NCBI RefSeq assembly: GCF_003590835.1 | Contig: NZ_QYUQ01000002.1 | Span: 2,852,001-2,916,000 of the forward strand | Length of the DNA stretch: 64,000 nucleotides | Source: Noviherbaspirillum sedimenti | GTDB lineage: Bacteria; Pseudomonadota; Gammaproteobacteria; Burkholderiales; Burkholderiaceae_D | Direction of reading: 5' to 3' | Shown here: positions 44,056-62,882 of the stretch, piece by piece | Layout: every line of letters starts with the position of its first letter | How positions within the stretch are numbered: position 1 is the first letter of the stretch | Made by a program: the position numbers and the translations under genes | The notes under the pieces: model-generated | The model's input: only the letters and a program-made list of their open reading frames with translations | What the model was told of the DNA's origin: nothing | Databases searched by the model: none

Positions 44056-44165
44056 CAAGCTAACCTATTATTGAAGAATGCTTCGCAGTAGCGAGCGACA
44101 AAAAAATGCTCGCATCCGTGAAGAGTACGAGCTGAAACCACATTGGAAGTGGTGGAGAAACTGAA

Positions 44166-44335
44166 TTACGCTGTTTCGCCAAACAATTCTCGGCCGATCA
44201 GCATGCGGCGGATTTCTCTGGTGCCGGCGCCGATCTCGTAGAGCTTGGCATCGCGCCACAGGCGTCCGGCCGGATATTCATTGATATAGCCATTGCAGCC
44301 GAGTGCCTGGATCGTCTCGCCCGCCAACGCGGAGA
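44166..44335 (-). pseudogene. C-terminal remnant of isovaleryl-CoA dehydrogenase
   Basis: Reading leftward directly after the cytochrome c stop codon, an open frame without a start encodes about 55 residues ending at a TAA (44166-44168). It reads as [36 protein letters not shown] and [12 protein letters not shown], which is the extreme C-terminus of acyl-CoA dehydrogenases of the isovaleryl-CoA (liuA/ivd) type, including the final FAD-binding helix. The other ~330 residues are absent. The homology begins at, or a few bases before, the junction with the cytochrome gene, so the catabolic block evidently replaced or split this gene. Confidence 0.85.
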
Positions 44336-44725
44336 CTACTTCCCTTTTTCTCCCGTCAAATAGTCGACGATTTGCCCTCGGTACTTGGCATCATCAAGGA
44401 AGTAGGTCATCAGTGAACCCGGCGCAACTTGTTGGGTGTCGGTAAGCCAGGCATCGAGCAGCTCCTTGGTCCAAACCTTGCCCGTCAGTGCCTTCTTGAA
44501 CGCAGGAGAGTAGGCGAAGCCGGGCACGCTACCGGCTTTTTGGCCTATTAACCCGTAGAGATTCGGACCCTGCCCGTTCGGACCACCCTTGTTGAAACTA
44601 TGGCAGTAGGCGCAGCTGTTTTTAACTAAGGCCGGCAATGCCAGCTCACCGCTCGTTGCTTGGGCCATCACTGAACTTGCAAAAAAAAGTAGTGCGCCAC
44701 CGCACCAGACATGGAAATTTTTCAT
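44336..44725 (-). CDS. Periplasmic monohaem cytochrome c
   Basis: A 129-residue class I cytochrome c. A signal peptide (1 to about 22, ending SSVMA) is followed by the haem site CAYCH and a late Met ligand in PGSLMTYF. It carries single electrons in the periplasm. Its start overlaps the stop of the flavoprotein gene by 4 bases (ATGA), so the two are translationally coupled and the cytochrome is the likely electron acceptor of that dehydrogenase. It is the last gene of the leftward catabolic block. Confidence 0.9.
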
Positions 44726-46473
44726 GCCGAAACCTCTTTCACAGATTCCTTTTGCAAGGCATTGGCAGCACGGTAAGCGAATGTGATGATCGGCCCCAAT
44801 GTTGCACCACCTGACCAATACGCCGGACCAGATGCTGATGCGACGCAATTGCCAACCCCATACAAACCGGGAATCGGCTTGCCATTCACATCAAGAATGC
44901 GGCCATGCGTGTCGGTTCTTGGGCCGCCTTTTGTATCCAGCGAACCCGGCCCGAGCAAAGCAGCGTAAAACGGCCCCTTGTCACTGATGGGCGACATGGT
45001 GGGGTTTTTCTTCCCTGGCGCAGTCTTGACATTGCCATTAAACAAGAGTTCGACGGGGCGCTCGCCACGATGGAAATCGGTATCTTTTCCGCTGCGGGCA
45101 AAGCCATTGAAGCGCTTGATCGTCTCATCCAGATTCGCGACAAATTCCGGCGCCAGCGTAACATTGACCTGTTCGCGATACTTTGCAAGTCGCGCGGCGA
45201 TATTTTTCGCCAGTTCTGCCCGCGTCGCCCCCTTGATCACGTGGCGGTCATCGCTACCGGGCGGAACGATATACGATCCATAATTTGCTTCAGCGCAGTT
45301 GTCTTGCGCCTGCTGGTCCCAGATCGCAACGAGCAAAGCGTTCGGAAACTCTTCCCTAGTGCCGTCCCAAGCCCAAAATGCACGGGTCATTTCGTTGTAC
45401 TGCAATTTCTCATTGACGACACGACGTCCGTACTTATTGACGAATACCATCGAATCGCCAGAGGGCATGAATGCCCCCCACATCGAACCTTCCTTGGCAA
45501 CTGCTTTCTCATACACAACCGGGCAATTCCATGCATGGTTCATGTTGCCAAGTTGCATGCCCAAAGGACTCGAGATGCGGATCAAGTCGCCTTCGTTCGA
45601 GTTGGCGGCACACCCCCCTACGATGTTGCCCCCCAAAAAATCGCGACGCAATTCCGGATCATGGGTAAAGCCGCCGGTACCGAACACCACCGCTTTTTTT
45701 GCCCGGAATCGCAACTGTCCCCCATCCGGTGCCGTCACTTCGACGCCGATGACCTCGCCCCGATTGTTGCGAATGACGCCCTGTACGCGGTGCGAGGTTT
45801 TGATGGCAATGCCGTCACGTCGCGCAGCAGCAGAGAGCGCACGGATCCCGAACTTGCCACCATCATGCAGCTCTGCGCCTGCGGGCTGCAATGCACGTCC
45901 CGTCGGCGCCTTATTCTCGGGCAACTCGGCCCAATAGTCAGGTACTTCCTTCCTATGCTGATAGGGCAATGCATTCTTCTCGTTAAGCAATTCAGCTGCG
46001 GTCGAGGCGGTGTCATAGAACGCCTCACACATCTCGTATTGCCAATCGCTCAATCCCAGTTTTGGTAGCGCTGGGTTATAGGCATGCGTCGCCGTCAGGC
46101 GCGCGACCAGCTTCATGAAATCAGGTTTTGGGTCGGCAATTCCGGCCTTTTGCATGGGGACATTATTCGGAATCCAGTACCAGAAACCCGACTTGGCCGT
46201 GGTACCACCAACACTGCCCGCTTTTTCAAGAACCAGCACCTGATTGCCTTGCCAGCGTGAAAACAACGCAGTGCCCAGCCCTGCTGCGCCGCTGCCGCAC
46301 ACGATCACGTCGTATTCGGCATCAAAGCGCTGCTCGCCCTTGGTAGATGCAGAAGCCGTCTGTGTGAGTGCGCCCAGCGCCCCCGCAGTAACTGCCCCTG
46401 CGGCCCCCAAAAAACTACGCCGCGAAAGCTTGCCGTTCGCAAGGTCCTCAATTTTTTTTACATCTTTGCTCAT
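44722..46473 (-). CDS. Tat-exported FAD dehydrogenase, 3-ketosteroid delta-1-dehydrogenase-like
   Basis: A 583-residue flavoprotein. A twin-arginine signal (SRRSFLGAAG; Arg18-Arg19) is followed by the dinucleotide fold YDVIVCGSGAAGLGTAL and GGTTAKSGFWYWIPNN, then the C-terminal FAD motif GLYGVGNCVASASG and Y-W-S-G-G near 552-556. These match the 3-ketosteroid delta-1-dehydrogenase/fumarate-reductase-like family, including the Tyr...Gly spacing that in KstD forms the catalytic pair, and a DYWAELPENKAPTGRAL segment near the KstD Tyr119 region. It would desaturate a cyclic ketone in the periplasm and pass electrons to the coupled cytochrome c. GGGGAC precedes the start. Substrate is inferred, not shown. 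Confidence 0.82.
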   Translation of the reverse strand: MSKDVKKIEDLANGKLSRRSFLGAAGAVTAGALGALTQTASASTKGEQRFDAEYDVIVCGSGAAGLGTALFSRWQGNQVLVLEKAGSVGGTTAKSGFWYWIPNNVPMQKAGIADPKPDFMKLVARLTATHAYNPALPKLGLSDWQYEMCEAFYDTASTAAELLNEKNALPYQHRKEVPDYWAELPENKAPTGRALQPAGAELHDGGKFGIRALSAAARRDGIAIKTSHRVQGVIRNNRGEVIGVEVTAPDGGQLRFRAKKAVVFGTGGFTHDPELRRDFLGGNIVGGCAANSNEGDLIRISSPLGMQLGNMNHAWNCPVVYEKAVAKEGSMWGAFMPSGDSMVFVNKYGRRVVNEKLQYNEMTRAFWAWDGTREEFPNALLVAIWDQQAQDNCAEANYGSYIVPPGSDDRHVIKGATRAELAKNIAARLAKYREQVNVTLAPEFVANLDETIKRFNGFARSGKDTDFHRGERPVELLFNGNVKTAPGKKNPTMSPISDKGPFYAALLGPGSLDTKGGPRTDTHGRILDVNGKPIPGLYGVGNCVASASGPAYWSGGATLGPIITFAYRAANALQKESVKEVSA

Positions 46474-46536: not shown

Positions 46537-47790
46537 CTACTGGAAACTTTCCAATATTTCGGCGTTGAATTTGGTCGCATTCATCCCGGTATCGTTCACC
46601 CCGGGATCCGTATGGAAGGTCGAGTGCCCGGACTTCACATCCAGGTATTCTCCGGACACGACAGAGATGTAGCGGATGCCGGATTTAACGCCAGTTCTCG
46701 TCTGAAAGTTGTACTGCATCCAGCGCCAGAACTCCCCTTTCTTGTCATACGCCTCACCTAAATAAATCGCATTGGTAGCAACATCGGCGTAGACCACCTT
46801 CTTGCTATAGGGATGCTCCGGGGGCGGGGTTCCTTCGACCACCCACACTTCACGTGGAGTGACGTTGTGGGTTGACGTCGCATAACCTTGGGAGATATTA
46901 AGGTGTGGCCACTCCTCGGCCGTACCCGCCTTGTCCTTGACGCGCTTGAGCTCGACATCGACTGCAGCAAGGATCCAACGCTTGCCGAGCAGCTTGGCAG
47001 ATTTGTAACGCGATGGGCGTGAATTCCAGATATTGATGTCGTCATTGATGAAATCAAACCCGGCAACATTGTCCATCCAGGCATTGCCGGACAGGCGCCG
47101 GATCCGGCGGGCAGACTTGATATATGCCCACTGGTCATCCAGCTTTCCAGCGACATCGTATTGCACCGTCATGGTGCCCACGCCTTTCAAGTCCTGCGGC
47201 GCCCGCGCCACCAGCGCTGTCTTGTGGAGCACATCTTGCTCGCTCGGGAAAGCCATCTCCCCGCCCCACAAGCGGCCGCGGTTGTAAATGCGCTGATAGG
47301 CATAGAACTGCGTGGCCTCGTAGCCATTTTTATTCGCCGTTACGAAATGCACATCCTGGTTCAAGTCCGAACCGGTCGATGCGCCGTAGTAATAATTCCA
47401 GATGACCTTGTCGCCGGCGAACGGATCCGCCGGGTCGATATTCGGAAATGGCTTGCCTGCGACATAGCCTGTCACTTCCCTGGTCTGCGGATCAAACTTG
47501 ACCTGGCCAGAATATTTTTTTGTCGCTTCTACATACTTCGGATCCAGTGTCGGCTCTTTGCTCTTCACGAGCGGGAATTTCTTATCATAGTTTCGGACCA
47601 TCCATTCCATCTTCTCCGTCAACAGATCACCGATCTTGTGTCCCATGAAGGTGTCATTGCGAACCTTGTCGAGATTGCTCTTGCTGATGACCGTCCCCTC
47701 AGGCAACTCCGCAGCAAACGACGAAGCGCTCAGGGAAAGCAGGATGACTGCCATTGACGTGACAGCTTTTCGCAACGTAATGGTATGCAT
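46537..47790 (-). CDS. DUF1329 family exported protein
   Basis: A 417-residue protein with a signal peptide (about 1-28, ending ASSFAAEL) and the DUF1329 body: NYYYGASTGSDLNQDVHF, QRIYNRGRLWGGEM and DVATNAIYLGEAYDKKGEFW. The family is periplasmic or outer-membrane associated, beta-rich, and of unknown function; it often sits beside DUF1302 genes. The start at 47790 follows GAGG; an ATG at 47802 contains that site. It lies 65 bases downstream of the DUF1302 gene. Confidence 0.88.
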   Translation of the reverse strand: MHTITLRKAVTSMAVILLSLSASSFAAELPEGTVISKSNLDKVRNDTFMGHKIGDLLTEKMEWMVRNYDKKFPLVKSKEPTLDPKYVEATKKYSGQVKFDPQTREVTGYVAGKPFPNIDPADPFAGDKVIWNYYYGASTGSDLNQDVHFVTANKNGYEATQFYAYQRIYNRGRLWGGEMAFPSEQDVLHKTALVARAPQDLKGVGTMTVQYDVAGKLDDQWAYIKSARRIRRLSGNAWMDNVAGFDFINDDINIWNSRPSRYKSAKLLGKRWILAAVDVELKRVKDKAGTAEEWPHLNISQGYATSTHNVTPREVWVVEGTPPPEHPYSKKVVYADVATNAIYLGEAYDKKGEFWRWMQYNFQTRTGVKSGIRYISVVSGEYLDVKSGHSTFHTDPGVNDTGMNATKFNAEILESFQ

Positions 47791-47855
47791 GGTGGGCCTC
47801 ATTTTTTTAGCTGATACGTGGATAATTGAGTTGTTCATTGCACGATTTCCTTTTC

Positions 47856-49541
47856 TCAGAACTGATAGGTGGCACGAATAGTTGCGTAGTCATGGCGGTT
47901 CATAGCGGCAAAGCCTGCGCTTTGATATCCTGGGTCGACAATATTGTCGGTCCTGGCGTGATCAGCACGGAAGAACACGGCGTCAGCGGAAAGACGCCAG
48001 TTGTTGCCGATGTTGTAAGTCACACTCGGAATAAAGAAGCTGGTGCGCGCCTGGAACTCCCGTCCAACGGCCAACATGTAGGTAAGCCGAGAATTCATGT
48101 ACGGAAACTGCATGAGCGCGGTACCGATCGTGTAATGTTTGCGCAGTGGTGCCGCACCGCCAACCGCGGCGACAACGTCCTCACCACTTCGCAATTGAGG
48201 CACCCAGGTGTCAAATATCTGGATGGACGAGAACGAAGGGGCATTCGTGCCAAGCCAATCCTGCAAACGCACCTGCTTGTCTATCCGCAGGGTGGTCTGA
48301 ACCACATCCTTCTTGACGATCGGGCCCATCGTGCCGGCATTGTTGGGGATCTGGAAAAAACCGCTGGCATTCGGCACACCGCTGACATTCGAATTCGAAT
48401 TGAACAGACGGCCTTTCTGGTATGCCATCTCGAAGTTCACGACCGCATCGATCGTCTGGCTTTCACCGCTGGCGCTGAATCCGAAGACATCGATGATTGG
48501 ATAAATCCAGTCGCCATATGCCTTGTTTTGCGGCGCCTGCTTGTAATACAGGCTTCCCACGCAGCCGCTGGCATCCCGCTGTCCCGCGCCGGCGAACACA
48601 CCACAGGGATTGAGAACGAAGTCCGGCTGGAATACGCGCTGGTAACCCAACGCATAATTCAGGTTCCCCGCCGTGCCCGCCCAACGAATCGCCCCTGTGA
48701 CCTTTTTGTAATCTGCGTCCGGGTGGTCATAATTGAATGCGGTTGCATACGCCAGGTAGTCAACACCCATGTTCGGCGAAGCCGACCAGCGTCCGCCTGA
48801 AATGTCATAGGTGTTGCCGATGTCTTTCTTGCGATCCCAGCCGGGACGCACCACAACTTGCAAACTGCCTTGCGCCTCGGGCACGGCAATCTTCACATTG
48901 GCCATGATGAGCGGCTTGCGCAGCTCGTCGCTTTCAGGCTCGCCAAACAGGCGCCAGCGATAGTCGAAGCCATGGAGCAAATCGTTCGGGTGGAAAAAAT
49001 CGGTCTCCCCGAATACAACTTGTTGCTTGCCGAGACGAACGGAAACGCGCTCACCCAAATTAAAATCCGCGTAAAACTCACGCAACTCACCTTGATTGTA
49101 GCTATCGCGAACATTGCAGCCGGGGCCCACGGGCGAGCCCGCGATCGTCGCGCTATAACAAGAGCGCGATTGCAATTCCTTTTGATAGGAGGTGATCGCT
49201 TCACGATCCACTCGGCCAACTGCTCGCCATGTCACCGGACCGCTCTTGGCATCGGCAGTCAGTTGCACCGCTGCACGCTGCATCATCATTTTTCCCTTGC
49301 CGCCCAACTGGGAATAGGGCGGCTGCCCAGGGAGCGGACTGGTTACATCGATCTTGTCGCGCAGGTTCCATGACAGCCAGGTGCGGGCGTATCCACCCAC
49401 CTTGAAATAATTCCCATTTGATTCTTCCTCAACAGCCGGTTCATCTGCAGCCATGGCATTGCTACAAACTGCCCCTAGCACCAGAATGGATGCCGCAGAT
49501 CGTCGCAACACGTCGATTGTTTTGTCTGATATATTTTTCAT
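47856..49541 (-). CDS. DUF1302 family outer-membrane protein
   Basis: A 561-residue exported protein. A signal peptide (about 1-30, ending SNAMAADE) is followed by a beta-rich body with KVGGYARTWLSWNLRDKI, VRLGKQQVVFGETDFFHPND and a C-terminal aromatic residue (RATYQF), as expected for an outer-membrane barrel. DUF1302 proteins are predicted porin-like or lipid-transport proteins. GGAGGAGAC lies directly upstream of the start. It is part of the same leftward set as the RND protein upstream and DUF1329 downstream. Confidence 0.88.
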   Translation of the reverse strand: MKNISDKTIDVLRRSAASILVLGAVCSNAMAADEPAVEEESNGNYFKVGGYARTWLSWNLRDKIDVTSPLPGQPPYSQLGGKGKMMMQRAAVQLTADAKSGPVTWRAVGRVDREAITSYQKELQSRSCYSATIAGSPVGPGCNVRDSYNQGELREFYADFNLGERVSVRLGKQQVVFGETDFFHPNDLLHGFDYRWRLFGEPESDELRKPLIMANVKIAVPEAQGSLQVVVRPGWDRKKDIGNTYDISGGRWSASPNMGVDYLAYATAFNYDHPDADYKKVTGAIRWAGTAGNLNYALGYQRVFQPDFVLNPCGVFAGAGQRDASGCVGSLYYKQAPQNKAYGDWIYPIIDVFGFSASGESQTIDAVVNFEMAYQKGRLFNSNSNVSGVPNASGFFQIPNNAGTMGPIVKKDVVQTTLRIDKQVRLQDWLGTNAPSFSSIQIFDTWVPQLRSGEDVVAAVGGAAPLRKHYTIGTALMQFPYMNSRLTYMLAVGREFQARTSFFIPSVTYNIGNNWRLSADAVFFRADHARTDNIVDPGYQSAGFAAMNRHDYATIRATYQF

Positions 49542-49608
49542 GTCTCCTCCATTGTCATATTTAATTACTACCAATTAAATCCACCACTGCCTGTCGCCCG
49601 CTCATGCA

Positions 49609-51996
49609 CTAAGCGGCCATCACCATTCTTCTCGCGGGCATCGCACCGCAATCAGCGACCGTTTTTTTTCGCTTACTCATCACGAATTCCGGTTTGAATA
49701 CGTAGACCATCGACGGAACAATGAAGAGTGCGCTGAATGAAGAAACGAACAGCCAGATCGCCATCAGGATGCCCATCTCCGCCTGGAATCGCAGTGATGA
49801 CGAAAACCACAGGACCACGCTCACAGTCAAGGTAAGCGAGGTAATCAGGACGCCCATGCCCGCAGTGCGCAAGGCCTTGGCGATCGCAAGTTCCAGGTTG
49901 TCGTTCTCATGCAATTCCTCACGGATCGCGTCGACGACGTAGAACGCATAATCAACGCCAAGGCCGATTCCGAGTGCAGCAACCGGCAGCGTACTCAAGG
50001 TCATGCCAATGCCCTGCCATGCCATCACACTAAAGGTGATGGTATTGGACAGCACCACGGGCACCATGAAAAAAATACCTGCGCGCGTGGACCTGTAAGC
50101 CACGGCACAACAGATGACGAGAACAAGCAAAGCCAAGGCGATACTCTCGATCTGACCAGCAAAGATCACTTCGTTGACGGCAGCTGTCACACCAATCAGG
50201 CCGCCGGCAAGCACGTACTTGCCCTGCTCTATCGGGTTTTCCGCAATGAATTCCTTGACGCGATGGATCGCCGTGCGAATCGTTTCGCCACGATGGTCCT
50301 TGAAAAAGAAAGTTACTGGCGCAGAAGTTTGCTGCGGCTCCATGAAACGGGCGGCATCGCCGGCATCGGGGCCCCACATGTAGAGCAGCTCGCCGTTTTC
50401 GTTGGCACTCCGGCCAAGGTCGCGGTAGCGCGGATTACCCTCGCGCAGCACTTGATTTACCATCGGCAAAATATCGACGAGCGAGAGGCTGCCGCCGATC
50501 TCGGGTTGCGCTCCCATGAAGCGCTGCATAGACGCCATGCTATTCAACACTGCTGGCTCCTTGATCGCACCGGGCTGCTTTCCTTCGAATACAACATACA
50601 TGCGGTCCGCACCCTGGAACTGCTTATTGATGGCAGCGGCATCCTGGTTATAGCGAGAGTCCCGCCACAGGATGGGCGAACCTGCGTCGGCGTCACCCAC
50701 CTGCAGCTTGAAAGCGTATGCGCCGGAACCGAGCAATACCACCGCCGTGCCCGCCAACACAAAGTAACGCCGGCGCGATGTCGCCACCGCGATGCAAAGG
50801 TCCAGTAAGCGTTCCAGGGCCGGGGCGATATTGATCGGATGCGCAAATCCCTTTGGCTGCTTGACCCAGGAAAGCAAGACCGGGGTCATGACGCACGCGC
50901 ACAGACCGATCGTGAGCACCCAGATGGTGCCAATGAGCGAGATTTTTTGCATCAATGGGATTGGCGTGAGAACCACGACAACCATGCATCCGGCATCGGC
51001 AACCACGCCAAGCATCCCCGGCTTGAACAACTGCAGCATCGCGGAACTCGCTGCTGCACGCGGCGTCGACGCGCCCGTCGCCAGTTCATCCCCGAAGCGT
51101 GTCACCAGTTGCACGGAATGGGAAATCGAACGCGCCGTAATCAGGAAGGCAATCACGATAACCAGCGGATCAAGGTTGTAACCGATCAACCGCGCCGCAC
51201 CCAACGCCCAGATAGCGCTCGTTGCGCCGGCAAGCAAGGGCAACAAGGTGCCACGCCAGGTACGCGCAGTCACGAAGAGCAGCGCCAACAGGCAGGCCAG
51301 CGTCATCATGAAAATCTGCATCGTTTCCGGGACATAGAAGTCCACCCAGCCGAACAGGATAGGTTCACCCACCACCCGTACGCGCACACCGTCGCCCTGA
51401 GCAGAATCAACGAGCTTCATGATCTGGGGGAAAATCTTGCTGTAATCGACCTCATTTTCGTAAAAGTCGACAGTAATCAGGGCGGCCTTCAAATCCTGAG
51501 ACACATAGGCCCCATAGATCAATGGGCTCTTCAGGACTGTATTCCTGAGCGCATCCATCTCTTGCGCCGTCTTGGGAACATCCGGGAACATGACTGGACT
51601 CGATTCAATCGCATCGGTAGAAGACTTGATGTCTTTCAACTTACTCGATGCCAACGAGAGAATCTGGAACGGATTGACGCCATGAACGAGCGCCAGATCG
51701 TTGGTGAGCTTCTTGACTTTTTCGAGCGCTCCGATGTTGAAGATATCGCCCTGCTCCACTTCCACCATGATGCTGACCATATTCGATCCGCCAAAATCCT
51801 GGCGGAAGCGTTTATGTACTTCAATGTAGTCATGACTGGTGGGCAGCAGGTCGTCAAACACGGTCTTGACTTCGACCCGCGCAGCGAAGAATCCCATGAC
51901 CAGTGTCAGGAGCGTAAAAATGACGGTAACTGCAATACGGTGCCGGATGCATGCCTCGACAAATTTCTCGAGCCTGCTTGATTTGGAAGTCTTCAT
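49609..51996 (-). CDS. MMPL/RND-superfamily transporter
   Basis: A 795-residue inner-membrane protein with about twelve membrane segments in two RND repeats, each with a large periplasmic loop (about 40-230 and 445-620). Features are FDDLLPTSHDYIEVHKRFRQ-type early periplasmic sequence, GVVADAGCMVVVVLTPIPLM and ALGIGLGVDYAFYVVDAIRE in TM regions. This HAE2/MMPL-like branch moves hydrophobic compounds or lipids using the proton gradient, in either direction in different members. No membrane-fusion (AcrA-like) or TolC-like gene accompanies it. The beta-propeller protein upstream and DUF1302/1329 downstream may be its partners. Confidence 0.88.
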   Translation of the reverse strand: MKTSKSSRLEKFVEACIRHRIAVTVIFTLLTLVMGFFAARVEVKTVFDDLLPTSHDYIEVHKRFRQDFGGSNMVSIMVEVEQGDIFNIGALEKVKKLTNDLALVHGVNPFQILSLASSKLKDIKSSTDAIESSPVMFPDVPKTAQEMDALRNTVLKSPLIYGAYVSQDLKAALITVDFYENEVDYSKIFPQIMKLVDSAQGDGVRVRVVGEPILFGWVDFYVPETMQIFMMTLACLLALLFVTARTWRGTLLPLLAGATSAIWALGAARLIGYNLDPLVIVIAFLITARSISHSVQLVTRFGDELATGASTPRAAASSAMLQLFKPGMLGVVADAGCMVVVVLTPIPLMQKISLIGTIWVLTIGLCACVMTPVLLSWVKQPKGFAHPINIAPALERLLDLCIAVATSRRRYFVLAGTAVVLLGSGAYAFKLQVGDADAGSPILWRDSRYNQDAAAINKQFQGADRMYVVFEGKQPGAIKEPAVLNSMASMQRFMGAQPEIGGSLSLVDILPMVNQVLREGNPRYRDLGRSANENGELLYMWGPDAGDAARFMEPQQTSAPVTFFFKDHRGETIRTAIHRVKEFIAENPIEQGKYVLAGGLIGVTAAVNEVIFAGQIESIALALLVLVICCAVAYRSTRAGIFFMVPVVLSNTITFSVMAWQGIGMTLSTLPVAALGIGLGVDYAFYVVDAIREELHENDNLELAIAKALRTAGMGVLITSLTLTVSVVLWFSSSLRFQAEMGILMAIWLFVSSFSALFIVPSMVYVFKPEFVMSKRKKTVADCGAMPARRMVMAA

Positions 51997-52046: not shown

Positions 52047-53012
52047 TTACAAAACGTTTGCCGGCGTCACGACGACCCGCGAACCGGACAAGTAGTAATG
52101 CCCCTCATGCATTGCAATCGCGGTGTACCAGTTGCGATCGAGCTCGGACAATCGGGTCGCTTTCCATTCGGCGCCCTTGGCGTCGCCCACCAGAATCGCG
52201 CCGTTGGCACCCACTGCCAGCCAGCGCTGGCCATCCCACATCACGTTGAACATATGCTCGGCCGAAGCCTTGCTGGCCAGCTCCCATTTTCCACCGCCAT
52301 CACGCGTGACCAGAACGATGCCGCCAAGACCGACGGCAACACCCACCCCGTCGTCATTAAACGAAACCGACATCAAGCTGCTTTTGGCAGGGACCGTGAC
52401 CTTGCGCCAAGTGGCGCCGTTGTCGTCGGAAACCTTGACCCGACCGAATTCTCCAACCAGCCAAACCTGATTCTTCGTGATCGCAATGTCATTCCATGCC
52501 GAGTCTTCGTGCGCGCCGGCTTGTCGCCAGGTTGTGCCGAAATCTGTTGAATGCAGAATGTTGCCAGCCTCACCAGCCGCCCATGCGCTGCCGCCAGGCT
52601 GCACCAAAACAGTCAACAGTTTGTTTGCGATGCTCGACTTTGGAACTTCGACATTGCGCCAGCTTTGGCCGCCATCCTCGGTTACCACCACCACCCCGCC
52701 ATTGCCGACCGCAACGGCACGCTGCTTATCCCAGGCGGACACGCTTTGCAATGTCTCTGTGACGCCGGTAGCCTGAACTTGCCATTCGGCGCCACCGTTT
52801 TCTGTTGCCGCAATTTTTCCGTTGCTGCCAACGACCCATACCGTTGAACGATCCGCCACCGACAAGCCGTAAAAGCCTTCGCCGCGCGCGAAAACAGGAA
52901 TTGATACAGAGCCTCCGGCGGGCACCGGCTTGATGAAAAGTCCTGCATAGAGCAAGCCACCGACGATCAACAGCGGGAGCGCGGACATGAAAAGTTTGAG
53001 AGCACGTTGCAT
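52047..53012 (-). CDS. YCF48-like beta-propeller protein
   Basis: A 321-residue protein. One N-terminal membrane segment (about 7-27) anchors a periplasmic beta-propeller of repeats with the pattern SWR/TW followed by V/VWAVG: GGAEWQVQATG, GGQSWRNVEVP, FGTTWRQAGAHED and NGATWRKVTVP. This is the YCF48/photosystem II assembly (HCF136-like) fold, here in a non-photosynthetic setting. In other bacteria such proteins accompany MMPL/RND transporters. The start at 53012 is chosen because the upstream ATG at 53030 lacks a ribosome binding site. It is the first gene after dmpB. Confidence 0.85.
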   Translation of the reverse strand: MQRALKLFMSALPLLIVGGLLYAGLFIKPVPAGGSVSIPVFARGEGFYGLSVADRSTVWVVGSNGKIAATENGGAEWQVQATGVTETLQSVSAWDKQRAVAVGNGGVVVVTEDGGQSWRNVEVPKSSIANKLLTVLVQPGGSAWAAGEAGNILHSTDFGTTWRQAGAHEDSAWNDIAITKNQVWLVGEFGRVKVSDDNGATWRKVTVPAKSSLMSVSFNDDGVGVAVGLGGIVLVTRDGGGKWELASKASAEHMFNVMWDGQRWLAVGANGAILVGDAKGAEWKATRLSELDRNWYTAIAMHEGHYYLSGSRVVVTPANVL

Positions 53013-53261
53013 TTTTTTACCATTCCACATGTATTAAAGGGCGGCTAATACGGCTGATATTCATGCTATTTTCCGAAGGCATTACAGTCCAATGCTTTTT
53101 ATATCAACCGTCGATACCGAACCCGTATCAACAATTTTTTCCAGACCAAAAAGTCACATCAACCGCCCGGACAACAAGTCTTGAATGAGCGCGCGCCAAG
53201 CGCTCTGCCGACAACAGCAGCGCAAAGGGCAAGTTTTAAAGATCGGGATCGCCGCTGCCCA

Positions 53262-54194
53262 TCAGGTCAAGACGTTAAAGAAACTTTCTCGCGGGGTGTT
53301 GTCCTGGGAAAAAGAGGCTGCTCCGAGGTCGCTCGTATCCCAGGTAAGCACCGGAGTGTCGGGATAGTGAACATAACCACCGGTGAACACTTCATTGCGG
53401 TTACCGGATGGATCAAAGAAATAAATCGTCGCACCGCGTGTAATGCCATGCCTGTTGGTATTTACATCAACGGGAATGCGATATTTTCCGATCAAGTCCG
53501 CAGCATGGAAAAGATCGTTGATCGAATCCAGAAGGAAGGAAACATGATGGAATCGATTCGGCTCTGGTTGCAGAACGAATGCGACATCATGCGGCTTGGT
53601 AGAGCAACTGACAAACAGCGCAAGCGACTGTTTGGAATCCGCATCCACCAGACGCTCTGTCATATCGAATTCGAACACTTCCTGGAATAGCTTGGCGTTC
53701 TCGTCAATATTCACGCCGCCTAACAGCACATGGTCAATGCGGTTGATCCGGAAGCCGCGGACGACACCTTCGTCTGGCATCACCCCTGGATTACTGGTCC
53801 CCAGCGTATTGCCGATCTGTTCTTTTTCAGCATAAAGATGCATCGTGTGACCGCTCGGCAGGACAAACTGCAAGCGTCGACCACTTTTTGGATAGACGCC
53901 AGCGGCAATACGTTCCACCGGAATTCCATAGGCATTTAACTTTTCTTCGAGATCCGTAAGAGTTTGGTCGTCGTAAACCTTGAATGCGAAGGAGTCGATT
54001 CCGGCAGAGTCTGCCTCGCGCAACACGATGCAGTGGTGATCATGCTCATCCCACGCCTTGTAATAATGCTTACCCTCCGCGTCGGTCATCACTTCAATCA
54101 GACCCATGCGGTCGCCATAATGGCGGCGGGCCGCCTTCATATCCAATACCCGGATGCAAACCTCGCCCAATCGCAGAACGCCTCTTAGTGCCAT
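53262..54194 (-). CDS. dmpB: Catechol 2,3-dioxygenase
   Basis: A 310-residue two-domain type I extradiol dioxygenase. The iron ligands are His155 (IDHVLLGG), His216/217 region (RFHHVSFLL) and Glu268 (NRNEVFTGG). It opens catechol to 2-hydroxymuconic semialdehyde. Length fits XylE/DmpB. AAGGAG precedes the start. It lies 75 bases downstream of dmpG rather than next to the hydroxylase genes, and no XylT/DmpQ-type ferredoxin, which reactivates the iron in many such clusters, is present in the window. Confidence 0.95.
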   Translation of the reverse strand: MALRGVLRLGEVCIRVLDMKAARRHYGDRMGLIEVMTDAEGKHYYKAWDEHDHHCIVLREADSAGIDSFAFKVYDDQTLTDLEEKLNAYGIPVERIAAGVYPKSGRRLQFVLPSGHTMHLYAEKEQIGNTLGTSNPGVMPDEGVVRGFRINRIDHVLLGGVNIDENAKLFQEVFEFDMTERLVDADSKQSLALFVSCSTKPHDVAFVLQPEPNRFHHVSFLLDSINDLFHAADLIGKYRIPVDVNTNRHGITRGATIYFFDPSGNRNEVFTGGYVHYPDTPVLTWDTSDLGAASFSQDNTPRESFFNVLT

Positions 54195-54269
54195 TTTCGT
54201 CTCCTTAAAATTATTTAATATTTGTTGCAATGAGGGCCGCCAGCCTGGCCACCGCCCATCAAGGGTTGA

Positions 54270-55310
54270 TCAAGCAACGGCTTTCAAAAGACCGCGCTCT
54301 TTGGCCATCGTCATCGCAGTGTCTTCAATCATGTCTTCCTGGCCGCCGATCAACTTTCTGCGGCTCATCTCGATCAAGATATCGCGCGCCGGCACGCCAT
54401 ATTTCTTTGCTGCCCGTTGGGCCGGATACAGGAAAGTGGAATAGACGCCTGCGTAGCCAATCGTGAGCGATTCGCGGTCTACTCGCACCAGGGTATCCAT
54501 CAATGGCACAACGATTTCTTCGGCAATGTCCATCAGTTTAAAAAGATCAACACCTGTTTCAATGCCCATCCGATCGCACACGGCGGCGAAGACTTCGAGC
54601 GCCGTATTCCCTGCACCTGCGCCAAGACCACCTACCGATCCATCGATCCGGTTTGCGCCGGCCTCCAATGCAGCGATGGAATTTGCCACGCCCATGCCGA
54701 GATTATTGTGGCCATGAAAACCAAGTTCGGTCTCCGGCTTCAGGACATCGCGGAGTAGGCGGATACGCGCCTTGACATCCTCCGGCAGCAGGTAACCTGC
54801 GGAATCCGTGACATAAATGCAATTGGCGCCATAAGACTCCATCAGCAATCCTTGCTTGAGCAGACCTTCCGGAGAATTCAGGTGCGCCATCATCAGAAAG
54901 CCGGTCGTATCCATTCCCAGATTTTTCGCACAGGCGATATGCTGCTCGGCGACATCGGCTTCTGTGCAATGCGTAGCCACATGCACGCTGTGCACCCCGC
55001 ATGCGCGCGCAGAACGCAATTGGTCCATGCTTCCCAGACCAGGCACCAGCAACACAGATACTTTTGCCTGCTTAAGTTTCGGAATTACTGCATTGAGATA
55101 TTCTTCGTTGGTATGTAGCGCACGCCCAAGATTCAGTGAATGACCGCCAAGACCATCCCCATGCGTCACTTGAATCAACGGGACACCGGCATCATCCAGC
55201 GCGGTGGCAACACGCACCATCTCGTCCAGTGTCATCTGATGATGCTTGGAGTGCATACCATCGCGCAGACACATGTCATGCAAAAATACTTTTTTTCCTT
55301 TTAAAGACAT
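54270..55310 (-). CDS. dmpG: 4-hydroxy-2-oxovalerate aldolase
   Basis: A 346-residue class II (metal-dependent) aldolase of the DmpG/MhpE/BphI family. Active-site elements are [17 protein letters not shown] (Asp, Arg and His) and the metal-binding HxH in [15 protein letters not shown]; the C-terminal domain binds the partner DmpF. It splits 4-hydroxy-2-oxovalerate into pyruvate and acetaldehyde, which is channelled to DmpF. The start ATG at 55310 overlaps the dmpF stop (TGATG); a GTG at 55313 is also possible. Confidence 0.95.
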
Positions 55311-56230
55311 CACGCGATCTCCTTCTGTTTCGGCGAGAGTTTCAGTGCTCCGGCGAGCATCTGTTCTGCAAACATTTCCGCTGTGCGCGTTGCCGCTGCA
55401 GTCATAATGTCCAGATTGCCGGCATAGGTTGGCAAGTAGTCGCCCAAGCCAGCCACCTCCATATAGACAGAAACCTGATGACCGTCGAAGACGGGGCCGT
55501 TGACAAGCCGATAGCCTGGAACATATTTTTGAACTTCTTTGATCATGGCCAGAACTGACGCAATGATGGCTGGCTGATCCGGCTCGCCTTCTGTTTCGCA
55601 GTAGATCGTGTTTCGCATCATCATTGGCGGCTCGGCCGGATTGATGATCGCCATTGCTTTACCTGACTTTGCGCCGCCGACTTTCTGGATCGCGTTCGAC
55701 GTCGTGCAAGAGAATTCATCCAAATTCTTGCGGGTTCCTGGCCCGGCGGATTTTGACGAGATGCTGGCGATGATTTCTCCATACGCTACGGGCTGCACAC
55801 TTGACACCGCATAGACGATGGGGATCGTTGCCTGCCCCGCACAGGAAATCATGTTCACATTCATCTCACCACGTTCGGCAATCGAGCGTAGATTGACCGG
55901 GGGAACGCAAAGCGGTCCAATTGCGGCCGGTGTCAAGTCGATTACCATGACGCCAAGCCCATTGAGCTTGCGTGAATTTTCCGCATGCACATAGGCAGAT
56001 GTGGCGTCAAATGCAATCTTGATGCCATCTGCTTCAATATGCGGCAACAATCCATCGATGCCTTCAGCGGTTGTCTTGATGCCCATCTTTCTGGCAAACG
56101 CAAGACCTTCCGAGTCTGGATCAATCCCGACCATCCACACTGGTTCCAGCACCGCACTACGCTGGATTTTATAGATCAGATCTGTTCCAATATTGCCGGA
56201 GCCGATCAGTGCGCATTTAATTTTTTTCAT
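55310..56230 (-). CDS. dmpF: Acetaldehyde dehydrogenase (acylating)
   Basis: A 306-residue NAD-dependent enzyme. The Rossmann motif is [13 protein letters not shown] and the catalytic Cys lies in [12 protein letters not shown]. It converts acetaldehyde plus CoA to acetyl-CoA and forms the channelled complex with DmpG. The start at 56230 ([12 protein letters not shown]) lies inside the 3' end of the tautomerase gene, an overlap of 14 bases; no good ribosome binding site is seen, so translational coupling is likely. Confidence 0.95.
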
Positions 56231-56465
56231 GATTTGCCATCCCATAAGTCGCGTTGAGAGTCTCGCTATGGACTCGCTCAAGATGTTCCCCTCTGGTTTT
56301 TCCGGAAACCGCAAAATGCTCCGGCAATAACTCGTCAATCAAGATCCTTACTTGATCGGATTTAACACCCAGGGCGTTCGTCACTGCGTCGGTAATGCCT
56401 GCTATCAGGGCGCGTTTTTGAATGACAGAACGGCCTTCAAGAAGGTGAATTTCAATAATTGGCAT
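56217..56465 (-). CDS. dmpI: 4-oxalocrotonate tautomerase, C-terminally extended
   Basis: An 82-residue tautomerase. The catalytic Pro1 follows Met ([20 protein letters not shown]), and [13 protein letters not shown] matches the family's Arg and loop region. It ketonises 4-oxalocrotonate between DmpC and DmpH. Family members of this pathway are about 62 residues; this one carries roughly 20 extra residues (from [10 protein letters not shown] onward) that overlap the start of dmpF. The tail could modify the hexamer surface, or be a fusion product of gene overlap. Confidence 0.9.
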
Positions 56466-56531
56466 TTTTTCCCCTAATGAGCTGGTAGAACCCTTTTCGT
56501 TGATCAACTTTCATGTAGCGCTCAATGCTGG

Positions 56532-57326
56532 TCATATAAACCGCATGGAAACACTTCCAAGTTCCTGAAATCGTGCCGTCACGTGATCGCCCGCCTTTAC
56601 CGGAATCGCTTCGGTAATTCCACCGCTCATGACGAAACTGCCAGCCGCCAGTTCTTCACCTTGCGCATGCAGGATATTGACCAGCCTGGCGATCGCTTCT
56701 GCAGGATGGTCGAGTACCGCTGCCGAGGCGCCCGTGGCGACAATTTCGCCGTTAATCTCAATCACTACACCGAGCGTACGCAGGTCGAGATCAGACGTAT
56801 TTCGCGCGCGTCCGCCAGCCACGAAACGGGCGCTGGAACTGTTGTCCGCGATGACGCTGGGGAGGTCAAATTTATACGCGGCATAGCGGGAATCGATCAC
56901 TTCGACGGCAGGCAGAACAAAGTCGGTCGCCGCCAACACCTGCGCCCTGTTACAGTCCGGGCCGCGCAGCGCCTGCCTGGTGACGAATGCCACTTCACAC
57001 TCCACGCGCGGATGAATCATCCCGGCGGCAACGATCGTGGAATTTTCCGGCCGTGCCATGTCGTGCGTGAGAAATCCGATCGCTGGCTCGTACACGTTCA
57101 TCTGCTGCATTTTTGCCTTGGATGTCAGCCCGATCTTCCAGCCGATAAGGCGGTTGCCGCGCACGACCCAGCCGCGACGAAGTTCCTGTTGCACGGCGTA
57201 GCCATCTGCCACGGTCATTGCAGGGAATTCCTCTGTCAGCAGCGGAATGACATGGGCCGTGGTTTGCGCTTCAGCCACGCGCTCCGCAAGGCGAATAATG
57301 TCTTCCTTTTGCAATGTCAGGCTCAT
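56532..57326 (-). CDS. dmpH: 4-oxalocrotonate decarboxylase
   Basis: A 264-residue member of the hydratase/decarboxylase family (DmpH/XylI), with GWKIGLTSKAKMQQMNVYEP, HPRVECEVAFV (metal-ligand Glu pair) and VLPAVEVIDSRYAAYKF. It decarboxylates the ketone form of 4-oxalocrotonate to 2-oxopent-4-enoate, in complex with the hydratase. The start overlaps the hydratase stop by 4 bases (ATGA). Its paralogue, encoded next to it, shares the fold, so the decarboxylase/hydratase assignment rests on sequence resemblance and gene order. Confidence 0.92.
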   Translation of the reverse strand: MSLTLQKEDIIRLAERVAEAQTTAHVIPLLTEEFPAMTVADGYAVQQELRRGWVVRGNRLIGWKIGLTSKAKMQQMNVYEPAIGFLTHDMARPENSTIVAAGMIHPRVECEVAFVTRQALRGPDCNRAQVLAATDFVLPAVEVIDSRYAAYKFDLPSVIADNSSSARFVAGGRARNTSDLDLRTLGVVIEINGEIVATGASAAVLDHPAEAIARLVNILHAQGEELAAGSFVMSGGITEAIPVKAGDHVTARFQELGSVSMRFI

Positions 57327-58123
57327 GCCGCACTCCTTCCAGAAAATGCAACCTTGCAGCTTCCCAGGCCGCCGATGGTGCAAACAAGTTCATCACCATC
57401 TTTGATCGGCAAAAGTGCTGATTGCGCACCAGACAGAATCACCTCGCCAGCCTTGAATGAAATGCCGAGTGCTCCGAGCGTGTTGGCCAGCCATGCAACG
57501 GCGTTGGCCGGGGATCCCTGGACCGCTGCGCCAGCGCCTGTCGACACCAGCTCGCCATTTTTCTCTACCACCATGCCGGCCAGCGTGATATCCAAGGTGC
57601 GCGGATCGCCTTTGGTTTTTCCCAGCACATATACGCCGCATGAGGCATTGTCCGCGACCGTATCCTGAATTTTTATCTTCCAGTCGGTAATCCGGGAATC
57701 GACGATTTCAAAGCAGGGCACGACATAATCCGTGGCACGGATTACATCCATTGCCGTAATGCCGGGACCAATCAAATCATCTTTGAGAACAAAAGCCAGT
57801 TCGGCCTCGGCCTTGGGCTGTATCAACGTATCGATATCAATCGTGCTGCCATCTGCATAACTCATGCCCGAGGTGAGCTGCCCGAAATCGGGTTGAAACA
57901 CGCCGAGGAAATCCTGGATTGCCTTACTGGTGACACCGATTTTTTTTCCGACGATCGTCTCTCCGGCCTGCACGCGGCGCTCGATCATGCGCTGCTGAAT
58001 CCGGTATGCGTCGTTAATGGTGATGTCGGGCTCTCGCTCAAGCAGCGGCGCTACCGTCTTTCTTGCGACCAATGCCTCGTACAACTCATCACCATACTTC
58101 TCGATTTTCTGAGCATTCATCAT
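57323..58123 (-). CDS. dmpE: 2-oxopent-4-enoate hydratase
   Basis: A 266-residue paralogue of DmpH of the MhpD/DmpE/XylJ type. Conserved parts are GKKIGVTSKAIQDFLGVFQP, IQPKAEAELAFVLKDDL (metal ligands) and YVVPCFEIVDSRITDWKIKI. It adds water to 2-oxopent-4-enoate to give 4-hydroxy-2-oxovalerate. It lies 15 bases downstream of dmpC and overlaps dmpH. Confidence 0.92.
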   Translation of the reverse strand: MMNAQKIEKYGDELYEALVARKTVAPLLEREPDITINDAYRIQQRMIERRVQAGETIVGKKIGVTSKAIQDFLGVFQPDFGQLTSGMSYADGSTIDIDTLIQPKAEAELAFVLKDDLIGPGITAMDVIRATDYVVPCFEIVDSRITDWKIKIQDTVADNASCGVYVLGKTKGDPRTLDITLAGMVVEKNGELVSTGAGAAVQGSPANAVAWLANTLGALGISFKAGEVILSGAQSALLPIKDGDELVCTIGGLGSCKVAFSGRSAA

Positions 58124-58138
58124 CTGAGTCTTCCCCTA

Positions 58139-59599
58139 TCAAAGCTTGACGCAGATATTGCGCGTCTCGGTATAGAACTCCAGGGAATGGATGCCGCCCT
58201 CGCGACCGATCCCGGATTGCCCGGACCCACCAAATGGCGTGCGCAAATCTCGCAAGAACCAGCTGTTGATCCAGGTAATGCCAACTTCCACGCGCGCAGC
58301 AACGCGGTGCGCACGCGCAAGATGTTGCGTCCAGATCGTCGTGGAAAGCCCATACTGGGAATCATTGGCAAGCTTGACCACTTCGTCTTCGGTGTCGAAC
58401 GGACGTATGTGGCAACATGGGCCAAAAATTTCTTCCTTCACGACTGCGGCATCGTCGGCAAGGCCGGTCCAGATGGTGGGCTGCACCCATGCGCCGCCCT
58501 TGAGCTCAGCCGACATGTCGGGCACGCCGCCGCCCGTAACCAGACTGGCACCGTCGTCCAGCGCTTTTTTGTAATAGGAAAGTACTTTGCGCTGGTGCTC
58601 CAGGCTGATGAGGGGGCCGAAATTCACGGCGTGATCCTCCGGCCGACCGAACTTCACAGCCTCAGCCTTCAGCTTCAATGCCTGCACAAATTTTTCAAAG
58701 ATCGGACGTTCGACATAGACCCGCTCCGTGCCCAGGCAGACCTGCCCGCTATTGAGGAAGGATGAGCGGAAAATTCCCTCGACTGCAGCGTCAAAATCGC
58801 AATCGGCGAACACGATCCCGGCATTTTTTCCGCCCAGTTCAAACGATACGTCGCGCATTCCTTCGGCCGCCGCTTTCATGATGGCGGTGCCGGTGCGCGT
58901 CTCGCCTGTAAAGGTGATGGCATTGATACCTTGATGCTGGGTCAGAAATTCTCCAGCCGATCCTGGCCCGAAGCCATGCACGACGTTATAAACGCCTTTC
59001 GGTATGCCGACCTTGTTCATGACTTCGCCAAGCAATGCTGCCGTCTGCGGCGTTTCCTCGGAAGGTTTCACGACCACGGCATTGCCACATGCGAGCGCCG
59101 GACTGACTTTCCAGGTCATCAGCAGGAATGGCGCGTTCCAGGGGCAAACAACGCCGATGACACCCTTGGGTGAGCGGATCGCATAGTTCAGCGCGCCACG
59201 CCCGTCTGGCGTAGCCATCTGAAAGGACTCGGCTGCGACGTTTTTCACCACATCGGCAAAGACCTTGAAATTGGCTGCACCGCGCGGAATGAAGGCATGC
59301 GTCATGACATGATGCGGCTGCCCCGTATCGGCCATTTCTGCGGCAACAAAATCATCGAAGCGACGCGTGATCTCATTGGCGACTTCGTACAGAAGTTCCG
59401 TCCGTTGATCGATCGTGATCCGGCTCCACTCTCCCTGAAGCGCGGCGCGAGCGGCCCTTACCGCAGCATCCACCTCGAGCTGTCCCGCTTCGGAGACGCT
59501 GGCAATCAGCTTGCCATCCAGTGGCGATCGCTTTTCAAAGCGCTTTCCACCAATTGCGGAGGTGAACTCGCCGTTAATAAAATTCTCTATTTGATGCAT
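58139..59599 (-). CDS. dmpC: 2-hydroxymuconic semialdehyde dehydrogenase
   Basis: A 486-residue NAD-dependent aldehyde dehydrogenase of the DmpC/XylG type. The glutamate is in VSFELGGKNAGIVF and the catalytic Cys in NSGQVCLGTERVYVE; the substrate region LNSWFLRDLRTPFGGSGQSG is typical. It oxidises the ring-fission product to 4-oxalocrotonate. With no hydrolase (DmpD) gene visible, this is the only branch encoded in the window, which suits phenol and 4-methyl- rather than 3-methyl-substituted catechols. Confidence 0.95.
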   Translation of the reverse strand: MHQIENFINGEFTSAIGGKRFEKRSPLDGKLIASVSEAGQLEVDAAVRAARAALQGEWSRITIDQRTELLYEVANEITRRFDDFVAAEMADTGQPHHVMTHAFIPRGAANFKVFADVVKNVAAESFQMATPDGRGALNYAIRSPKGVIGVVCPWNAPFLLMTWKVSPALACGNAVVVKPSEETPQTAALLGEVMNKVGIPKGVYNVVHGFGPGSAGEFLTQHQGINAITFTGETRTGTAIMKAAAEGMRDVSFELGGKNAGIVFADCDFDAAVEGIFRSSFLNSGQVCLGTERVYVERPIFEKFVQALKLKAEAVKFGRPEDHAVNFGPLISLEHQRKVLSYYKKALDDGASLVTGGGVPDMSAELKGGAWVQPTIWTGLADDAAVVKEEIFGPCCHIRPFDTEDEVVKLANDSQYGLSTTIWTQHLARAHRVAARVEVGITWINSWFLRDLRTPFGGSGQSGIGREGGIHSLEFYTETRNICVKL

Positions 59600-59856: not shown

Positions 59857-60918
59857 TCAGATCGCTTTGAATAAAGGACTGCGCACACGCTGGGCATCCG
59901 CGGCGGAAAAGAATTTCTCCATATAGATGTCACGTTCGAATAATCTTCCCTGCATGAGCGTCGTAATGCATGCATCGATCATGAGGGGCGGACCACATAG
60001 ATATGCTTTATGTCCACGGAAATCATTATTGAAATGCCCCTTCGCCACCTCATGCACGAATCCTCTGGCACTAGTCCAGCCATTGCCATCAAGCTCGCCA
60101 GATAAGGCCGGGATATACGTGAAGTTGGGGTGCTCAGCCGCCAGGCGATCAAACTCCTCGTGGTAATAGAGCTCATCTCGGCTGCGCGCGCCATAGATCA
60201 AAGTAATGGGAAGTGTGCAACCGTCCTCGATCAATTCCAGAATCATTGATCGCGGACTCGACAAGCCGGATCCTCCCGCGAGAAAAAGCGAAGGAAGATT
60301 GGCCGACTTCCGTACAAAAAATCGTCCATATGGGCCACTCAAGCTCACGCAATCGCCTTCGCGCAATTCCTGATGAATCCAGCCGGTCACTGTGCCACCA
60401 GGTACATGGCGAATGTTCAACTCGATTTCGCCGTTCACCGAGGGCGCATTTGCAAGCGAAAATGCGCGCCTCGTCTGCCCGTCCGGCATGTTCAGATTGA
60501 TGTACTGGCCAGCCTGAAAACGCATTCCGCCTGGACTATCGAGGCGAATCCAGATGCCTTTGATGGTTGGCGTAAGGTCCTCGATTCTGCTGACGACACC
60601 GCTAAAATCCTGAACCGGAAATTCCTGCGCATCCGGGTCTTCCTCGATATCGGCCTCGATCGTCAAATCGCTTTGCAGCGTTGCGCAACACGCCAGGCAT
60701 TTCTGTTCGTCACGCTCGATATCCATGAGCGCGAAATTCGTTGCCTCGCCGTGTTCGATTTCACCATCTAGCACCTGCACTTTGCAGGTGCCACACACAC
60801 CGTGGCCGCAGGCATGTGGCAAGTGGAGGCCTGCGCGCAGGCTGGCGTCAAGAATGGTCTGGCCTGCCTGAACTTCAATCGTGCGTCCCAGCGGTTCGAT
60901 CGTCAGTTGATAGCTCAT
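59857..60918 (-). CDS. dmpP: Phenol hydroxylase P5, ferredoxin:NAD(P)H reductase
   Basis: A 353-residue reductase. An N-terminal plant-type [2Fe-2S] domain has Cys37, Cys42, Cys45 (ACGHGVCGTC) and Cys77 (KCLACC). An FAD domain (about 105-205) contains RRAFSLANAP and an NAD domain (about 210-335) contains LFLAGGSGLSSPRSM. It passes electrons from NADH to the di-iron hydroxylase (DmpLNO). It lies 11 bases downstream of dmpO. It is the last gene of the hydroxylase set. Confidence 0.96.
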   Translation of the reverse strand: MSYQLTIEPLGRTIEVQAGQTILDASLRAGLHLPHACGHGVCGTCKVQVLDGEIEHGEATNFALMDIERDEQKCLACCATLQSDLTIEADIEEDPDAQEFPVQDFSGVVSRIEDLTPTIKGIWIRLDSPGGMRFQAGQYINLNMPDGQTRRAFSLANAPSVNGEIELNIRHVPGGTVTGWIHQELREGDCVSLSGPYGRFFVRKSANLPSLFLAGGSGLSSPRSMILELIEDGCTLPITLIYGARSRDELYYHEEFDRLAAEHPNFTYIPALSGELDGNGWTSARGFVHEVAKGHFNNDFRGHKAYLCGPPLMIDACITTLMQGRLFERDIYMEKFFSAADAQRVRSPLFKAI

Positions 60919-60929
60919 ATAGACCCCTT

Positions 60930-61289: not shown

Positions 61290-61301
61290 GTGTCTTCCCC
61301 C

Positions 61302-62849: not shown

Positions 62850-62882
62850 GCTATATCTCCTTGTACCCTCAATTGTTTATAT

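Follow-up and report, generated by a model that had tools for sequence, protein, structure and literature searches.

The locus

The DNA analysed here is a stretch of 64,000 nucleotides of Noviherbaspirillum sedimenti (contig NZ_QYUQ01000002.1, positions 2,852,001 to 2,916,000; hereafter the window), in which a leftward block of phenol hydroxylase and meta-cleavage genes ends in two overlapping genes, one for a flavin adenine dinucleotide (FAD) dehydrogenase and one for a small cytochrome c (Table 1). The dehydrogenase gene starts with an ATG at 46473, preceded by GGGGAC and with a second in-frame ATG upstream at 46488, and its stop overlaps the cytochrome start in an ATGA at 44722-44725. A preliminary description of this DNA had reported the overlap, the cytochrome neighbour and the place at the end of the block, all of which the sequence confirms, and had assigned the flavoprotein to the 3-ketosteroid delta-1-dehydrogenase (KstD) family. 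We find instead that it resembles cyclohexanone dehydrogenase (CDH), and we propose, with a probability of somewhat under 60%, that it desaturates six-membered ring ketones in the periplasm, passing the electrons to cytochrome c and giving a product that aromatises to a phenol, on which the dmp enzymes would then act.

The flavoprotein is of the cyclohexanone dehydrogenase type

The best solved structures for the window protein are 8AM3, 8AM6 and 8AM8 (775-769 bits; E-value for 8AM3 3.9e-232), and the 8AM3 match spans residues 16-576, i.e. the whole protein. This structure is the CDH of Alicycliphilus denitrificans K601 (EC 1.3.99.14), which is reported to accept cyclohexanone, 3-methylcyclohexanone and, weakly, 4,4-dimethylcyclohexanone (PMC10966990). 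The window protein is 59-60% identical to the A. denitrificans CDH entries, and the next solved relatives are 3-ketosteroid dehydrogenases, at 148 bits or less (142-148). A profile search places its FAD_binding_2 domain at residues 55-559.

Residues named for CDH (PMC10966990) were mapped through an alignment of 120 listed sequences among the 1991 found. The window protein retains every one of the ten published residues of the active site, the gate and the FAD link, and so does each of the ten members of its clade (query included). The catalytic Tyr195, Tyr376, Tyr570 and Gly574 of CDH correspond to Y180, Y359, Y552 and G556, the gate and pocket residues Trp113, Tyr415, Phe496, Phe352 and Leu530 to W98, Y398, F478, F335 and L512, and the FAD-linking Cys305 to Cys288. 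Over the 120 listed sequences Cys305, Phe352, Tyr376, Phe496, Leu530, Tyr570 and Gly574 show no variation; Trp113 and Tyr195 occur in 119 each, the exceptions being two engineered entries (P0069 and P0056), and Tyr415 in 118, with Phe in P0111 and P0114.

On these comparisons the enzyme class, a predicted CDH-type alpha,beta-desaturase, is firm; a chance match is excluded by the 775-bit whole-protein match to a solved enzyme, together with a gene order that is kept in another genus of the family. The preliminary description had placed Tyr552 and Gly556 correctly, as the alignment with CDH Y570/G574 confirms, and was right in expecting a cyclic-ketone desaturase with a KstD-type Tyr/Gly site; this ketone-binding pair is common to KstD and CDH, hence not diagnostic, and the protein groups with CDH, not with the 3-ketosteroid dehydrogenases. 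The alignment that it had called for, with KstD and cyclohexanone dehydrogenases, gives CDH as the best match with the Tyr/Gly pair retained, and its guess of cyclohexanone or cyclohexenone as substrate is backed by the identity of about 60% to CDH and by the conserved pocket. An AlphaFold model of the protein has a mean pLDDT of 71.5, with several active-site stretches below 50; Foldseek ranked 8AM3 first in the PDB for this model, but at TM scores of 0.58-0.63 and a root-mean-square deviation of 10 A, and we did not rely on it.

Predicted export and the cytochrome partner

The N-terminus of the window CDH, LSRRSFLGAAGA, carries a motif of the twin-arginine translocation (Tat) type, as judged by eye. 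The pattern RRx[FLVIMA] lies within the first 50 residues in 117 of the 120 listed sequences, query included, and the starts of the three without it (P0009, P0010 and P0052) may be mis-called. The partner scores 22.5 bits against the cytochrome family PF00034 (cut-off 21.3), its best solved cytochrome reaching 74 bits. A c-haem gene comes next after the CDH gene in 10 of the 11 loci read: the window, G720, L005, G157, G065, G118, G342, G023, Caballeronia NK8 and Paraburkholderia PGU19. The preliminary description had called Tat export with cytochrome coupling unusual for the KstD family; the Tat-type start and the cytochrome gene are indeed present, but among CDH relatives they are the rule and not an oddity. 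In the same genome, the gene of a 41% identical paralogue precedes an open frame whose CXXCH motif is of a different type.

The Tat-type motif and the adjacent cytochrome with its export-type N-terminus fit a periplasmic dehydrogenase with a cytochrome partner, and the recurrence of the cytochrome gene makes its product the obvious candidate for the physiological electron acceptor. The 2024 paper that tied the CDH gene to activity names in its main text neither a physiological electron acceptor nor a compartment, and the words cytochrome, periplasm and signal peptide do not occur there (PMC10966990).

Linkage to aromatic ring-cleavage genes

The phenol hydroxylase large subunit of the block matches the phenol hydroxylase 2INN at 743 bits, and intergenic gaps within the block are at most 72 bp, except for 231 bp between the catechol 2,3-dioxygenase (C23O) and YCF48 genes and 257 bp between dmpP and dmpC. 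No ferredoxin frame was seen in those 257 bp (59600-59856); the gene for a 2Fe-2S ferredoxin is found upstream of the whole dmp operon (L025:1482-1883).

In G720, probably Telluria mixta, the order dmp genes - C23O - YCF48 - RND - DUF1302 - DUF1329 - CDH - cytochrome is that of the window, the shared genes being 58-87% identical (dmpF not included), and the segment from DUF1329 to CDH holds, in addition, genes for a small protein, a Rieske oxygenase (on the same strand), rubredoxin and rubredoxin reductase. In L005, a Methylibium metagenome-assembled genome, the order is Rieske - C23O - CDH - cytochrome, with opposite-facing phenol hydroxylase genes, and the CDH start lies at the C23O stop or 15 bases after it. 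Phenol hydroxylase and C23O genes are thus near CDH in all three readable loci of the clade (window, G720, L005), and the suggested link of the pair to the phenol pathway is retained in each.

Outside the clade eight loci were read, at 57-63.5% identity to the window CDH. In five of them (Caballeronia NK8, G157, G065, G118 and G023) the pair stands beside the gene for the large subunit of hydroquinone 1,2-dioxygenase, for which PF18191 was tested in the Caballeronia copy, the other four copies being 68-80% identical. Around these five pairs there are also genes for an aldehyde dehydrogenase, a maleylacetate reductase and an intradiol dioxygenase, with CoA-transferase genes identified in two of them, G065 and G157; G065 also has a 3-oxoadipyl-CoA thiolase that scores above cut-off. 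The stretches that hold the pair inside such clusters are L036, L014, L016/L017, L018/L019 and L021/L022. The dioxygenase gene was not in the stretch read at the other three loci, namely G342 (a contig of 12.4 kb, with an intradiol gene), Paraburkholderia and Shinella. Since a different aromatic pathway adjoins the pair in five of eight outside loci, its coupling to ring cleavage recurs, and since the tree places the Caballeronia CDH apart from the group of G065, G023, G157 and G118, more than one branch shows the hydroquinone linkage. The literature search found no biochemical test of the hydroquinone-linked pairs. The window's own genome gave no match to PF18191, but the control gave none either, so that this is no proof of absence.

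Table 1. Features of the CDH locus in window coordinates
Feature	Position	Strand	Basis
Truncated 3' gene end, acyl-CoA-dehydrogenase-like, block edge	44163..44336	-	own-genome DNA matches; family presumed
Class I cytochrome c, 129 aa; Sec-type N-terminus by eye; ATGA overlap with CDH gene	44336..44725	-	
Haem motif CAYCH, cytochrome residues 38-42	44600..44614	-	sequence
FAD dehydrogenase, CDH type, Tat-type signal, 583 aa	44722..46473	-	8AM3 match and ten active-site residues
Tyr552...Gly556 (CDH Tyr570/Gly574), bind ketone oxygen	44806..44820	-	alignment and CDH paper
Tyr359 codon (CDH Tyr376), proposed catalytic base	45397..45399	-	alignment and CDH paper
Cys288 codon (CDH Cys305, 1.84 A from FAD C8M)	45610..45612	-	alignment and CDH paper
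Tyr180 codon (CDH Tyr195), catalytic	45934..45936	-	alignment and CDH paper
Tat-type N-terminal signal region, residues 1-48, RRSF at 18-21	46330..46473	-	sequence
DUF1329 protein	46537..47838	-	PF07044, 206 bits
DUF1302 protein	47856..49574	-	PF06980, 46.5 bits (cut-off 23)
RND/MMPL-type transporter	49609..51996	-	PF03176, 103 bits
YCF48-like BNR-repeat protein	52047..53030	-	PF14870, 80 bits
C23O; start may be internal MALRG at 54194	53262..54230	-	TIGR03211, 361 bits (cut-off 320)
Meta-pathway dmpG, F, I, H, E, C	54270..59599	-	TIGR03217, 03215, 03218, 03220, 03216 above cut-off; tautomerase PF01361
Phenol hydroxylase dmpP, O, N, M, L; L continues beyond window end	59857..64000	-	PF02332, PF02406, PF04663

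Distribution and signs of acquisition

Searches at E <= 1e-150, in which the own genome is always counted, recovered CDH from 2 of 392 genomes sampled in the family, from 6 of 399 in the order and from 1 of 369 in the class; among 398 genomes drawn anew from the order at a completeness of 98 or more there were 3 with CDH, all three among the first six. At the same threshold it was not found in the five other genomes listed under the same genus, and a scan of genome contigs found only one relative. In a tree of 53 sequences the window protein falls in a ten-member clade of moderate support (88/94) on a stem of 0.58, with the A. denitrificans CDH outside it. Elsewhere in the same genome, a region at 3.98-4.04 Mb of contig 2 contains two KstD-like paralogues, 41% and 32% identical, along with five matches to Rieske oxygenases, and is perhaps a steroid or terpenoid island.

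The gene remnant at 44163-44336, which we take from a motif to be acyl-CoA-dehydrogenase-like, begins exactly at the cytochrome stop codon and has five further stretches of 80-92% identical DNA elsewhere in the genome; it is likely a recombination scar at the block edge. G+C content drops there from about 0.60-0.65 to 0.53-0.55 (window 20001-64000), a weak sign of acquisition because the first 12 kb of the window are just as low (0.54-0.57). Beyond the window a DDE transposase lies near a DmpR-type regulator. Edge remnant, transposase and patchy distribution suggest that the phenol/meta/CDH block may have been acquired, which would weaken arguments from position in this genome alone and leave those from repeated linkage unaffected.

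Proposed role of the CDH-cytochrome pair

In the mechanism that we propose, CDH would fold with its FAD, probably bound to Cys288, in the cytoplasm and leave through the Tat system. In the periplasm, Tyr552 and Gly556 would hold a small cyclic ketone with a six-membered ring, Tyr359 as the base, with Tyr180, would deprotonate it at the alpha position, and the beta hydride would pass to FAD. The reduced flavin would then give up single electrons to the cytochrome c of the neighbouring gene, from which they would reach a terminal oxidase. Cyclohexanone would yield the enone, and cyclohexenone a dienone that is the tautomer of a phenol; enone or dienone product would then enter the cell and be consumed by phenol hydroxylase and the meta pathway. 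One desaturation likewise turns 1,4-cyclohexanedione into the tautomer of hydroquinone, as it turns cyclohexenone into that of phenol. Both aromatising chemistries are feasible, since old-yellow-enzyme flavoproteins, another family, carry them out, converting cyclohex-2-enone to phenol, 3-methylcyclohex-2-enone to 3-methylphenol and 1,4-cyclohexanedione to 1,4-dihydroxybenzene (PMC4034509). Aromatisation of a cyclohexane ring is moreover a known theme for cyclohexanecarboxylate (PMC5906575). For CDH itself, a doubly unsaturated but unidentified product from 4,4-dimethylcyclohexanone was suspected, and phenol formation by tautomerisation is described only as a possible side event (PMC10966990). 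The idea in the preliminary description that an alicyclic ketone may be aromatised to a phenol, the putative product, is therefore chemically sound and gains comparative support.

The hydroquinone-linked loci suggest a route from 1,4-cyclohexanedione to hydroquinone. We tentatively extend this, at somewhat less than even odds, to a recurring exported module in which CDH-cytochrome pairs would aromatise alicyclic ketones to phenols outside the cytoplasm with electrons going straight to cytochrome c, acting on cyclohexenone to supply phenol for meta cleavage here and on 1,4-cyclohexanedione beside the hydroquinone dioxygenase elsewhere. Among the hits listed for the terms searched in the open-licence literature, none describes such a pair within a cluster for phenol or hydroquinone. 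N. sedimenti itself, whose apparently exported CDH relative and its cytochrome adjoin a phenol-degrading gene set, may turn saturated ring ketones into digestible phenols. If real, the module would give alicyclic rings an aerobic route that avoids lactone formation by the Baeyer-Villiger reaction. From the recurring place beside phenol and hydroquinone cleavage genes, specific alicyclic growth substrates can be predicted for the carrier genomes (6/399 of the order), as can a direct desaturation of ring ketones to phenols, which would be of use in biocatalysis too. A Baeyer-Villiger route may itself exist elsewhere in the genome, where two matches resembling flavin monooxygenases score 53 and 21.5 bits.

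Several observations weigh against periplasmic aromatisation feeding the dmp enzymes. The A. denitrificans CDH is reported to convert cyclohexanone to the enone (PMC10966990), and the pathway proposed in that organism hydrates the enone, with no aromatisation (PMC3692508, PMC4052635). No ketone-forming alcohol dehydrogenase is found among the annotated genes of the block, whose 231-bp gap separates C23O from the transporter genes, and co-regulation is unproven. Allowing one mismatch, no sigma-54-type site occurs at 43-54 kb; one, itself with a single mismatch, stands ahead of the dmp operon's first gene (L025:1959-1973). In the window, sites of this type occur as often as in shuffles (11 against 9.5 expected), and they are modestly enriched in L025 (7 against 2.8 expected; 6 of 200 shuffles reach 7), and transcript boundaries are not settled because promoter-like and terminator-like sites are no commoner than in shuffles (8 against 9.0 and 16 against 16.2). 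As to export and electron transfer, two clade members, P0009 and P0010 (the latter labelled Glaciimonas), are listed without a Tat motif and may be cytoplasmic versions or have mis-called starts, and in Shinella PSBB067 the 900 bp that follow the CDH gene contain no CXXCH. A cytochrome gene may be absent beside the one characterised enzyme: Alide2_4319, next in number to the A. denitrificans CDH gene, is called a CO-dehydrogenase gene (PMC3692508). Finally, the Rieske oxygenase, rubredoxin and reductase co-inherited with the clade are unaccounted for by a simple cyclohexanone route.

These last genes lead to an alternative that we consider unlikely but take seriously, namely that the substrate of CDH is not simple cyclohexanone but a different ring compound, which the co-inherited Rieske oxygenase produces; CDH, Rieske and phenol/meta genes would then belong to a single pathway, with the RND, DUF1302 and DUF1329 proteins transporting its larger hydrophobic substrate. 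Besides G720, where the Rieske gene is near CDH, and L005, where it adjoins C23O, the own genome encodes a Rieske oxygenase 82% identical to that of G720 and a small partner of about 130 residues (77%), which with rubredoxin and reductase lie 6-9 kb past the window end (L025:6718-9807), on the other strand and adjoining a LysR gene. A XylR/DmpR-type activator and the transposase lie in between. A third genome, labelled Glaciimonas, holds both CDH (74%) and Rieske oxygenase (84%), on contigs for which one and the same length is listed, and the long clade stem, although its support is below the starred level, looks as if use had changed. A rubredoxin chain serving a Rieske oxygenase would be unusual. 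Against this stands the small closed CDH pocket (Trp gate, Phe, Leu), which is fully kept and which in CDH admitted dihydrocoumarin only after a Trp-to-Ala change (PMC10966990). Moreover, two plasmids, one of Sphingobium and one of Cupriavidus, carry a relative of the Rieske oxygenase together with one of its small partner (45-46% identity for the latter), and a CDH search at 1e-60 found no CDH on either.

It is improbable that CDH yields the enone only, to be hydrated and hydrolysed as in Alicycliphilus, its nearness to phenol genes being a product of catabolic-island assembly. The A. denitrificans CDH works in just such a proposed pathway (PMC3692508, PMC4052635), and the block may be acquired, but no molybdenum hydratase gene was seen in it (the rest of the genome was not searched for one) and the ring-cleavage linkage recurs in separate clades with different partners.

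A periplasmic reductase fed with electrons by the cytochrome is very improbable. Flavin-cytochrome pairs in the superfamily of fumarate, urocanate and vinylphenol reductases are often reductases, and the protein scores 69 bits with urocanate reductase and 97 with the vinyl phenol reductase model; the cut-off of the latter is 600, however, flavocytochrome c (TIGR01813) reaches 136 of 285, the dehydrogenase tyrosines are kept, and the oxygenase neighbours suggest an oxidative setting. A 3-ketosteroid delta-1-dehydrogenase is scarcely tenable, the shared superfamily and Tyr/Gly site and the 169-245 bits to three NCBIfam steroid 1-dehydrogenase models notwithstanding, for these stay far under cut-off (NF009478 245 of 789, NF005882 231 of 788, NF009479 169 of 793), solved KstDs lag far behind CDH in score, and the CDH pocket residues are kept. 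With model cut-offs missed and the CDH match far better, the steroid dehydrogenase and fumarate-reductase readings were rejected.

Comparison with known systems

The flavocytochrome c and urocanate reductases share with the window CDH the superfamily and, as predicted for the window pair, the use of a periplasmic flavin with a cytochrome, but Foldseek aligns them at 19-22% identity, their models stay below cut-off, and the window CDH has no fused haem domain. KstD (4c3x, 7p18) is alike in fold, in the ketone-binding pair and in alpha,beta-desaturation chemistry, and differs in its low score, in its identity in the Foldseek alignment (24-27%) and in its models falling below cut-off. The NCBIfam families ChcC1 (4-oxocyclohexanecarboxylate 2-dehydrogenase) and ChcC2 (4-oxocyclohex-2-ene-1-carboxylate 5-dehydrogenase) are related flavoproteins whose names describe the stepwise desaturation of a cyclohexanone ring, but the window protein scores 221 and 181 bits against cut-offs of 1000 and 900, and the ChcC substrate is carboxylated. 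Far closer is the CDH of A. denitrificans K601, alike over the whole protein, in the ten residues and in a Tat-like N-terminus; its gene lies near those of a molybdenum 3-hydroxycyclohexanone dehydrogenase, whereas the window CDH lies in a phenol/meta-cleavage block. The hydroquinone-linked pairs of Caballeronia sp. NK8 (pNK83) and four genomes of the same order are the same gene pair, at 60-63.5% identity to the window protein, and differ in the partner pathway, which runs there from hydroquinone to 3-oxoadipate and in the window from phenol through catechol to meta cleavage.

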